Source: Caulobacter sp. CCUG 60055 (GTDB lineage: Bacteria > Pseudomonadota > Alphaproteobacteria > Caulobacterales > Caulobacteraceae). From it: 64,000 bases of DNA. This document shows positions 51,149 to 53,551 of the stretch, piece after piece (position 1 is the first letter of the stretch; each line of letters opens with the position of its first letter). Where the stretch lies: positions 62,001 through 126,000 of the forward strand of contig NZ_PUIC01000004.1 of assembly GCF_022750545.1 (NCBI RefSeq), read 5' to 3'. The notes beneath the pieces are model-generated. The model saw only the letters and a list, made by a program, of their open reading frames with translations, ran no database searches and was not told the origin of the DNA. The position numbers and the translations under genes are program-made.

Positions 51149-51296
51149 GGCGTAGTCCCTCTCTGACGATCCCCCACGCGCCGGCCGCCTGGGCGCCGGG
51201 CCAGGAATCAACCGACGGTAACTCAGTTCGTCGAGTCGCGTTATCAAGAAAGGCCCCGCTCTTTATCGCGAACCCGAACCGCCCTATATTGAGTTC

Positions 51297-51581
51297 GTCC
51301 GGTCGCACCGGACTATGGAGATAAACGCGCACGCAATAAGCGGACTGGACCCGGGTGCGATTCCCGGCGGCTCCACCAAACCACTTCCGGGTTATCGCCG
51401 GGAAGCATGGGGCCGATCAGCATCGACAGACGTGTAAAGGTGTTGCTTTCTCTCGGCCTGACCCACCGTTCCGGGTCTTAATCTAAATGCGAACGATAAC
51501 TTCGCTGAAGAGTTCGCCCTGGCCGCGTAATGCGGTCCGAGTGATCTCGACCTTAAAGTCCTAGGGGTTCAGATCCCTAGG
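51297..51581 (+). ncRNA. ssrA: two-piece, circularly permuted tmRNA
   Basis: Gene for transfer-messenger RNA, which rescues stalled ribosomes. It is permuted: the 3' acceptor piece comes first and ends CCA at 51378 (T arm CCGGG-TGCGATT-CCCGG then CGGCTCCACCA). About 30 bases of spacer follow, then the coding piece starts GGGGCCG at 51409. GGGGCCG pairs with CGGCTCC (7 bp with one G-U) to restore the acceptor stem. The tag frame 51489-51530 begins at resume codon GCG and reads ANDNFAEEFALAA-stop. A 7-bp hairpin (51560-51581) marks the approximate 3' end. TATATT (51285-51290) may be the -10. The ends are estimates. Confidence 0.9.
51489..51530 (+). other. tmRNA proteolysis-tag reading frame
   Basis: GCG resume codon through TAA encodes ANDNFAEEFALAA. 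With the alanine delivered by the tmRNA itself the added tag is 14 residues, AANDNFAEEFALAA. The reported C. crescentus tag, as I recall it, ends FAVAA, so the penultimate region differs by Val to Leu. The terminal LAA is the usual ClpX recognition end, and the N-terminal part is where SspB is expected to bind. Confidence 0.9.
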
Positions 51582-51769
51582 CGGGGCTCGGGGGCGCCTG
51601 GCAACAGAAGCCCCCACTTTCCCCGTCGCGTCCGCACGCTCGCCCCCCGCACCTTCCGCCGCCGCGAAAAATGATCGCGCCCCGCCTCGCGGCGTCTTTG
51701 CGGCGACCGCCCCAGAGGCTAACCTCCGCGGGTTTTCTAATCCCAGTGAAAAAGGTCCCGACACTCCGC

Positions 51770-52270
51770 ATGGCACAAGAACAGCCGCCCGAGGACCTGA
51801 TGCACTACGAGGCCATGGCGCAGGACGCGCTGCGTGGCGTCGTCAAGGCCGCGCTCAAACGCGCCGCCTCCGAGGGGATTCCCGGCGATCACCACTTCTA
51901 CATCACCTTCCGCACCGGCGCCCCGGGCGTCTCCGGCCCGCCGGAGCTCCTGTCCAAGTATCCGGACGAGATGACCATCGTCCTGCAGCACCAGTACTGG
52001 GACCTGACCCCCGGCGACACCTTCTTCTCGGTGCTGCTCAAGTTCGGCGGCCAGCCCAAGAAGCTGTCGGTTCCCTACGCCGCCCTGACCCGCTTCTACG
52101 ACCCCAGCGTCCAGTTCCTGCTGCAGTTCGACGCCCCCGAGATCGACCTCGAGGAGATCGACGAGGACGACGCGTCCGACGACGAGGCCGCGGCCGCGGC
52201 CGCGCCGGCCTCCGGCGGCGGCGATGACCAGCCCAAGGTGGTCTCGCTCGACCAGTTCCGGAAAAAATAG
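51770..52270 (+). CDS. sspB: SspB-alpha family ClpXP adaptor
   Basis: A 166-residue SspB homologue. It binds the ssrA tag and delivers tagged proteins to ClpXP. The fold segment is FYITFRTGAPGVSG, YPDEMTIVLQHQYWDL, FSVLLKFGGQPKKLSVPYAAL, followed by an acidic disordered linker (about 128-150) and the C-terminal tail VVSLDQFRKK, which in other SspB proteins docks ClpX. ATG 51770 is chosen; the upstream in-frame sequence is not conserved. It lies 190 bases after ssrA, placing tag and adaptor together, and abuts the thioesterase start (no gap). Confidence 0.93.
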   Translation: MAQEQPPEDLMHYEAMAQDALRGVVKAALKRAASEGIPGDHHFYITFRTGAPGVSGPPELLSKYPDEMTIVLQHQYWDLTPGDTFFSVLLKFGGQPKKLSVPYAALTRFYDPSVQFLLQFDAPEIDLEEIDEDDASDDEAAAAAAPASGGGDDQPKVVSLDQFRKK

Positions 52271-52741
52271 GTGTCCGACATCGCCTCCGACGACGTCCAG
52301 GCGCTGACCGACGAGGCCATCCTCGCGCGGTTCCACGCCTCGAAGAGCGCGCCGTCGGGCTCGCGGACCCTCGGCTTTCACATGGTGCGCGTCAGCCAGG
52401 CCGACCGCGAGGTCGAGGTGGCTTTCGACGCCCGCGCCGACCTCCTGTGCAACCCGATGGGCCAGATCCAGGGCGGCTACCTGTGCGCCATGCTCGACGA
52501 ATGCATGTCGGTGGCCGGCATGGTCGCTTCGGGCATGACCAGCGTCATGCCCACCCTGGAGATGAAGACCAGCTTCCTGCGCCCGGCCCTGCCGGGATCG
52601 CTGCGCGGCGTCGGCCGCATCGTCAAGTGGGGCAAGACCGTCGCCTTCGCCGAGGGCGAGCTCTACGACCCGGAAGGGCGGCTGCTGGCCAAGGCCAGCG
52701 CCACCGCCCTGCCGACCCCGTTCAAGCGGTACAAGTCCTAG
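52271..52741 (+). CDS. PaaI-type hotdog thioesterase
   Basis: A 156-residue hotdog protein. The central helix and active loop are NPMGQIQGGYLCAMLDECMSVA, and the following strand is TLEMKTSFLRPALPG. Gln and Asp in GQIQGG and LDE are typical for the 4HBT/PaaI group, which hydrolyses acyl-CoA. GTG start at 52271 lies directly on the sspB stop with no gap, so the two genes are probably read from one mRNA. Functional relation to SspB is not evident. Confidence 0.88.
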   Translation: MSDIASDDVQALTDEAILARFHASKSAPSGSRTLGFHMVRVSQADREVEVAFDARADLLCNPMGQIQGGYLCAMLDECMSVAGMVASGMTSVMPTLEMKTSFLRPALPGSLRGVGRIVKWGKTVAFAEGELYDPEGRLLAKASATALPTPFKRYKS

Positions 52742-52750
52742 GGGCGGCCG

Positions 52751-53551
52751 ATGCGCTGGGGAGCGGCCCTGCTGCTGGCGTTCGCTCTGGTCCTCGTCGC
52801 GGGCCGCCCGCAGCCCGCCCGCGCCGCGCCCGGCCCGTTCTCCGACTGGGCGGCGATCATCGTCGCCGGCGACTGGCGGGCGCATTCGGGCAAGCCGTCC
52901 GAAGTGTTCGACAACGGCCGCCGCGACCTGGCGCGCGCCTTCGTCAAGGCCGGCTTCTCGCCAGACAACCTGACGCAGTTCTCGGTGCGGCCGGAACGCT
53001 ATCCCGACACCCGTCCCCAGCACGCCACGCCCCGCCGGATCGCCGAGCAGCTTTTCGACCTCGCCGGCCGCGCCCGCGGCGGCTGCCTGGTCTATTTCAC
53101 CTCGCACGGCTCGCCTGACGGCGTGGTGGTGAACGACGGCCTGCTCACCCCGGCCGGCGTGGCGCGGCTGGTCGACGACACCTGCGGCGAACGTCCGACG
53201 GTGGTGGTGATATCGGCCTGCTTCTCGGGGGTGTTCGTCGAGCCCCTGGCCCGGCCCGACCGCATGATCCTGACCGCCGCCAGGGCCGACCGCGCCTCGT
53301 TCGGCTGCGGCGAGCAGGATCGCTACACCTATTTCGACGCCTGCGTGCTGGAGAGCCTGCCCAAGGTCCAGAACTTCGCCGCCCTGGCGCCGGCGGTGCG
53401 GGCCTGCGTGGCCAAGCGCGAACATGACCTGGACGCCGACCCGCCGTCCGAACCTCAGGTCTATGTCGGCGCCGAACTGAGGCCGGTCCTGCCGTTCCTG
53501 CTCTTCGCCCGGCCCGACCCGCCGGCCGCCGACCGCCGGGCCGGCGGCTAG
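52751..53551 (+). CDS. C13-family (legumain-like) cysteine peptidase
   Basis: A 266-residue protein with a signal peptide (about 1-25) and a caspase-like fold. Catalytic His119 lies in FTSHGSPDG and Cys157 in VISACFSGVF, the paired HG and SAC motifs of clan CD peptidase family C13 (legumain, GPI8). The mature protein should be periplasmic or exported, with an asparaginyl-type specificity as the family expectation. It is the third gene after sspB, nine bases beyond the thioesterase stop. A Pro-rich tail ends it. Substrate unknown. Confidence 0.85.
   Translation: MRWGAALLLAFALVLVAGRPQPARAAPGPFSDWAAIIVAGDWRAHSGKPSEVFDNGRRDLARAFVKAGFSPDNLTQFSVRPERYPDTRPQHATPRRIAEQLFDLAGRARGGCLVYFTSHGSPDGVVVNDGLLTPAGVARLVDDTCGERPTVVVISACFSGVFVEPLARPDRMILTAARADRASFGCGEQDRYTYFDACVLESLPKVQNFAALAPAVRACVAKREHDLDADPPSEPQVYVGAELRPVLPFLLFARPDPPAADRRAGG

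Follow-up and report, generated by a model that had tools for sequence, protein, structure and literature searches.

The DNA analysed here, a 64,000-nt stretch of the genome of Caulobacter sp. CCUG 60055 that we refer to as the window, carries the gene for a permuted tmRNA (ssrA) and, downstream on the same strand, the gene for the adaptor protein SspB (sspB), with a thioesterase gene directly after it (Table 1). A covariance search of the window gave a full-length match to the alphaproteobacterial tmRNA model RF01849 (alpha_tmRNA) at 51258-51618 (+), with 249.6 bits (E 2.6e-71; gathering score 50), and a match to RF04321 (tmRNA_permuted) at 51317-51530 with 126.1 bits; the RF01849 match is the only one in the whole genome (E <= 0.001). 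The acceptor piece comes first and the coding piece second, with CCA encoded at 51376-51378, and CGGCTCC at 51368-51374 pairs with GGGGCCG at 51409-51415 in the RF01849 model to form an acceptor stem across both pieces. The original prediction, made from the letters of the window, had proposed a permuted two-piece tmRNA with this CCA end, this start of the coding piece and this stem, all of which we recover both in the sequence and in the pairing of the model. ARAGORN reported a single tRNA-Thr in the window and no tmRNA, which we regard as a limit of its sensitivity because the Rfam match is strong.

The third pair of the acceptor stem is G.U (51411.51372), and a G.U at this place is associated with alanylation as part of the identity rule. 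By comparison with the family, the transcript would be processed to two RNAs and alanylated. The tag codons (51489-51527) and stop (51528-51530) make up a short frame that ends as a ClpXP-type degron and gives a full predicted tag of (A)ANDNFAEEFALAA. The element in front of the gene is a putative promoter, judging from its likeness to the S. meliloti sigma70 consensus CTTAGAC-n17-CTATAT, and the tmRNA pieces of that species are listed as 82 nt ("tmRNA 5' end") and 204 nt (both in the available portion of PMC2245857).

Table 1. Features of the ssrA-sspB locus, in positions of the window
Feature	Positions	Strand	Basis and remarks
Putative ssrA promoter region	51258..51296	+	CTTTAT 51261-51266, 17 nt, CTATAT 51284-51289; within the 5' segment of RF01849
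Acceptor piece (T arm, 3' half of acceptor stem, CCA)	51297..51378	+	RF01849 and RF04321 alignments; 5' end predicted
Intervening segment between CCA and first acceptor-stem base	51379..51408	+	Removal on maturation predicted from the family
Coding piece, ending in hairpin GGGGGC...GCCCCC	51409..51618	+	RF01849; 3' end from the model
Tag frame ANDNFAEEFALAA and stop TAA	51489..51530	+	Translation; same stretch aligned in RF01849
Putative sspB promoter, TTGCGGC - 13 nt - GCTAACCTC	51698..51726	+	Pattern recurrent in Caulobacteraceae-type loci; RpoD consensus
sspB, alphaproteobacterial-type SspB adaptor, 166 aa	51770..52270	+	PF04386 (E 2.7e-42); PDB relatives
Hotdog-fold thioesterase gene, GTG start directly at the sspB stop	52271..52741	+	PF03061, TIGR00369

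That sspB lies at 51770 on the strand of ssrA had also been predicted, and the identity of its product is supported by the SspB profile PF04386 (144.9 bits against a cut-off of 27) and by the solved structures 2QAS (E 1.5e-68), 2QAZ (E 4.3e-65; deposited under the title "SspB Protein") and 2NYS (E 6.8e-43); no NCBIfam family matched the protein at E 0.001. We take 2QAS and 2QAZ to be SspB-alpha of Caulobacter, a protein reportedly described by Lessner et al. in 2007. The match to 2QAS covers residues 1-158 of the 166, and the difference from the two structures is one of ordinary divergence, clearest before the C-terminal tail, PKVVSLDQFRKK, which is present in the window protein. Binding of the ssrA tag, and of ClpX through this tail, is predicted for this SspB from its family. 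The start codon lies 151 nt past the end of the ssrA model; an alternative in-frame start farther upstream, at 51671, would lengthen the protein, but most relatives align from residue 1 of the 51770 start. No GGAG occurs within 14 nt before the ATG (51750-51769), and one is present in 43 of 80 relatives.

The region 52271-53551, 3' of sspB, holds the hotdog thioesterase gene and then a gene for a C13/caspase-like peptidase. The thioesterase gene probably shares an operon with sspB, and sspB probably heads a conserved run of three genes, because relatives of the thioesterase and the peptidase recur at 65 and 72, respectively, of the 80 sspB loci compared (best 80 of 528).

Spacing of ssrA and sspB across the class

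Among the 385 alphaproteobacterial genomes searched, RF01849 matched in 352 and PF04386 in 338, and spacing was compared in the 86 genomes present in both lists of the 150 best places for the two models. In 65 of them the SspB domain follows ssrA on the same strand at a distance of 44-297 nt (median 121), and in 11 more at 0.8-4.1 kb, again on the same strand, so that 76 of the 86 have it within 4.1 kb. The remaining ten comprise three genomes with the genes farther apart on the same contig and seven with the genes on different contigs, some of which perhaps reflect breaks in assembly. With 65 of 86 genomes showing the close same-strand arrangement, the pair is not a chance neighbourhood. The clustering of tag and adaptor genes claimed in the original prediction is thus borne out well beyond the window genome, to which the pairing is not peculiar, and it is common among relatives. 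The comparison within Caulobacteraceae-type sspB loci (best 80 of 528) gives the same picture: a same-strand ssrA precedes sspB in 66 of the 80, in 56 by up to 400 nt and in 10 by 0.4-1.84 kb, and no ssrA was found in the fetched upstream DNA of the other 14, two of which had less than 400 nt available.

The genes that intervene between ssrA and sspB differ among families and are shared by relatives. Judged by eye, they presumably include a pyruvate-kinase-like frame in two loci (L020 and L029; these and similar labels are our own for loci, genomes and families), one kind of transporter-like frame in G022, G154 and G252, and one kind of hydrolase-like frame in G009 and G143.

Transcription signals between the two genes

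The putative promoter in front of the window sspB has counterparts across Caulobacteraceae. The pattern used to find them, TTG[AC][GC] followed by G[CT]TA with spacers of 10-15 nt allowed, was written after viewing the same loci and has dinucleotide shuffles as its sole control; so defined, it is found before sspB in 64 of the 79 Caulobacteraceae-type loci with enough DNA, against 1.6% of shuffles, and is missing in 15. All 64 matching loci have a spacer of exactly 13 nt although 10-15 nt were allowed, as does the window, and G[CT]TA starts 31-48 nt before the sspB start codon in 62 of the 64; the distance is 52 nt in the window, and the pattern of L076 and L080, 14 nt before the start codon, may be due to chance. 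The window element agrees in part with the published Caulobacter RpoD consensus TTGaCgS / GCtANAWC (as quoted in the accessible text of PMC8144410), the firm letters being TTG and GCTA. The pattern persists in 10 of the 13 testable loci in which no ssrA was found upstream (one of the ten, L058, with 392 nt upstream only) and in all seven loci where the genes are 1.3-1.8 kb apart, so sspB in Caulobacteraceae apparently does not rely on a promoter supplied by ssrA. The original prediction had further read the adjacency as a regulatory unit. An operon calls for no promoter between its genes, and here, as far as sequence tells, an RpoD-like pattern lies between them, both in the window and in most of its family; the permuted tmRNA, the identity of SspB and their clustering therefore stand, and a shared regulatory unit is not supported here.

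What follows ssrA bears on how much transcription could continue into sspB. The window has few T and no clear T-run after the tmRNA, and the arm of its long hairpin has two mismatches; for both reasons transcription may end inefficiently there, and read-through probably occurs to some extent, in addition to transcription from the putative sspB promoter. Many relatives have a long hairpin and a T-rich tract after ssrA, and the pairing is weaker in the window. Counting as one unit each occurrence of the 3' segment, arms of 9 nt with at most one mismatch are found in 26 of the 66 first units of Caulobacteraceae loci, against 3% of shuffles; of 40 further units, 13 show complementarity with no more than one mismatch. 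Paired changes occur between the arms, for example GAGGACGCC/GGCGTCCTC and GGCGGCGCC/GGCGCCGCC. On folding, the first unit of L078 forms a long hairpin (z -3.09) and its second unit does not (z -0.83); the window stretch has z -1.70.

In a number of these loci the 3' end of the tmRNA gene is itself repeated. AACAGAA, the core of the 3' hairpin, recurs within 150 nt downstream in 25 of the 66 loci; the count by units gives two to five units in 26 of the 66 and one in the window. Tandem 3' copies that repeat every 69-77 nt, with one exceptional step of 54 nt in L094, are present in 23 of the 66; L024 and L084 (spacings 21 and 39) were dropped as apparent chance matches, and L075 (spacing 36) was left out of the count as not of the usual period. 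Two such arrays are those of L078 (Caulobacter vibrioides DSM 9893; 2215-2391, a 75-nt unit in 2.4 copies) and L094 (Phenylobacterium kunshanense; 2031-2364, a 76-nt unit in 2.7 copies), both 100% identical between copies, and further ones lie between ssrA and sspB in L018, L040, L052, L062, L065, L067 and L089. Searches of six genomes with a 106-nt piece of the L078 array gave matches in the ssrA-sspB region only. We read the unit as starting inside the last pseudoknot of the tmRNA; it ends with the long inverted arm, followed in many units by the T-rich tract, and the tandem copies would then be duplicated terminator segments, a putative function. Among 76 loci taken across the class, exact AACAGAA recurs in three gaps, none of which resembles the Caulobacteraceae unit.

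Elsewhere in the class the gap can be far shorter. A fixed rule for the sspB start codon worked in 64 of the 65 close-pair genomes and places it 8-267 nt past the end of the ssrA model; in seven of these 64, from four families (G125, G095, G020, G374, G313, G097 and G250), the distance is only 8-31 nt, with G125 at 8 nt. Such a gap leaves no room for a separate promoter outside ssrA, so transcription of sspB there must come through ssrA or start at a promoter within that gene, and a shared ssrA-sspB transcript is plausible in these genomes. Because seven of 64 genomes leave no such room, coupling of the two genes probably differs between lineages. The number of T after ssrA correlates with the gap (rank correlation 0.37, p 0.0025, n=64); it is not lower in the eight genomes with gaps of at most 40 nt than in the other 56 (p 0.49), and T-runs follow ssrA in G097 and G250 despite their short gaps. 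We therefore rejected loss of the T-run as a sign of read-through in short-gap genomes. Similarly, TTGAC occurs in 13 of 56 class-wide spacers against 8% of shuffles and the looser TTG[AC][CG] in 31 of 56 against 41%, so promoters of sspB's own outside Caulobacteraceae are not established.

Tag sequences with and without sspB

The window tag ends in FALAA, and the exact tag is found in none of the 66 Caulobacteraceae loci, in which the commonest is ANDNFAEEVRLAA (25 loci) and ANDNFAEEFAVAA occurs in nine. All 66 tags begin with ANDN, and the middle of the tag varies freely. Across the class, ANDN begins the tag in 73 of 76 genomes with sspB (the exceptions are G020 and G250, with ANSN, and one ANNN), a count to be read with the fact that the tag-finding pattern favours ANDN-like tags and that these 76 genomes also have strong tmRNA scores.

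We identified 24 genomes that have ssrA but gave no SspB match, partly on the ground of their absence from the table of PF04386 matches. Four (G151, G188, G202 and G254) were dropped because relatives in their families have sspB, and three of these four have ANDN; G058, G083 and G275, with tmRNA below the cut-off, were also left out. In the remaining 17, from families without an SspB match, ANDN begins the tag in only two. The tags start with AKSD, AKRD or ANDD in family f51, ANES in f99, ANDK in f25, ANDN, ANNN or AKNN in f32, ANNK in G118, ANQN in G134 and, by eye, GNNN in G248; G002 keeps ANDN. The C-terminal AA is kept in all of these, for example ANESYAIAA, AKSDYAEYALAA and ANDKLAIAA (L174-L200).

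As a control we used a hand-picked subset of 30 genomes with sspB and weak tmRNA scores (E 9e-42 to 1e-65), with tag starts read by eye, of which only 17 have ANDN. Against these 17 of 30, ANDN is rarer both in the 17 sspB-negative genomes (Fisher test, p 0.0046) and in all 21 that were readable (5 of 21, p 0.025); with one vote per family, and the mixed f32 counted as having lost it, the figures are 1 of 8 and 16 of 28 (p 0.044). Five of the 17 genomes (G155, G253, G118, G002 and G248) are only 68-88% complete, which makes the absence of sspB there uncertain; in the genomes of f51, f99, f32 and f135, which are 93-100% complete, ANDN is found in 1 of 12, and the f51 tags lack it despite strong tmRNA scores (254-269 bits). 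The contrast is thus weak, and these data are suggestive only of a loss of the ANDN part in genomes without sspB; such a loss would fit a role of SspB contacts in holding the ANDN part in place.

Two observations on the tmRNA genes may be recorded here. Long tags with repeated ANxN-like motifs seem to be encoded in L208, L215, L217, L219, L223, G020 and G250 (L099 and L136), examples being ANDNVAFVAANDNTVVEVAVAA (G110) and ANSNKAPVANFNRAYAAVAA (G020). Second, partial alpha_tmRNA matches below the cut-off lie at G134:C54:3291-3416, G155:C56:3238-3314 and G207:C1:994473-994543, and are possibly remnants of elements that integrate in tmRNA genes.

Interpretation and relation to known systems

The reading we favour, at a probability of about 0.8, is that of a standard alphaproteobacterial trans-translation locus, in which ssrA and sspB are most likely separate transcription units in Caulobacteraceae. 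The transcript of the circularly permuted ssrA would be cleaved to give separate acceptor and coding RNAs, held together by pairing in the acceptor stem, and the complex, charged with alanine, would rescue stalled ribosomes and add (A)ANDNFAEEFALAA. SspB would bind the first half of the tag and pass the tagged protein to ClpXP, which would read its last residues. The two genes would have been neighbours since early in the history of the class, with ssrA strongly transcribed up to a point near its terminal hairpin, and with sspB and the thioesterase gene transcribed from their own RpoD-type promoter at about 51698-51726.

If instead sspB were expressed by read-through from ssrA, the tag and its adaptor would rise and fall together as one regulatory unit. 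The shared strand and close spacing across the class would agree with this, as would the gaps too short for a separate promoter in seven genomes and the lack of an obvious T-run after the terminal hairpin of the window ssrA. We nevertheless consider it unlikely, since the promoter-like pattern stands before sspB in most Caulobacteraceae-type loci, including most of those in which ssrA is not adjacent, a long hairpin follows ssrA in many relatives far more often than in shuffles, and the T count of short-gap genomes is no lower than that of the others. The adjacency could also be neutral, an old neighbourhood inherited without a functional reason, which is compatible with separate transcription units and to which we give somewhat less than even odds. 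Other genes have been inserted between the pair in several families, separation is tolerated in the ten genomes in which the genes are far apart or on different contigs, and PMC2245857 calls it "uncertain" whether alphaproteobacterial sRNAs are functionally associated with their conserved neighbouring genes. However, close retention in 65 of 86 widely sampled genomes appears high for a neutral pair, and the two products share a pathway.

A further reading, which we put forward tentatively and would not expect to hold in full, is that coupling has been switched within the Alphaproteobacteria: some lineages would express sspB by read-through, from a start 8-31 nt past ssrA, Caulobacteraceae would have insulated it by giving it a promoter of its own and, at roughly one locus in three, by tandem copies of the pseudoknot-terminator segment of the tmRNA, and after loss of sspB the adaptor-binding ANDN half of the tag would decay while the ClpX-binding end stays.

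As to known systems, the window is an ordinary member of its kind and adds one more standard trans-translation locus. It shares with the tmRNA of Caulobacter crescentus the order of acceptor and coding pieces, the CCA, the acceptor stem across both and the RF01849 family, whose model also matches our Caulobacter vibrioides control genome, and it differs in the tag. A tmRNA gene that adjoins a protein gene of the same pathway is also found in the ssrA-smpB arrangement, which we take to be that of E. coli; the partner there, SmpB, binds the RNA, whereas the neighbour in the window is a proteolytic adaptor. The available passages of PMC2245857 name ssrA beside smpB as functionally associated adjacent genes, put a distance of 1.1 Mb between smpB and the tmRNA gene of the genome studied and, already in 2007, record conservation of the genes on either side of the alphaproteobacterial tmRNA, leaving them unnamed. 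The two-piece permuted tmRNA of C. crescentus goes back to Keiler, Shapiro and Williams 2000 (as cited in the portions seen of PMC3985003 and PMC8119881), and permuted tmRNA and SspB of Alphaproteobacteria were already known (excerpts of PMC3985003, PMC2245857, PMC8119881 and PMC11915505). Among the literature matches listed, we found no statement on the ssrA-sspB adjacency or the tandem 3' repeats of the tmRNA, and none on the conserved sspB promoter pattern or the too-short gaps; relative to those matches, the promoter pattern, the short gaps elsewhere in the class and the tandem 3' copies are new additions.

In 76 of the 86 class genomes listed for both, no more than about 4 kb separates the tmRNA gene from the gene for its proteolytic adaptor, and in Caulobacteraceae this closeness does not seem to be due to a shared promoter. 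The very short gaps, the losses of sspB and the duplicated 3' ends of the tmRNA gene offer natural cases for testing how the expression of a tag and that of its adaptor are coupled.
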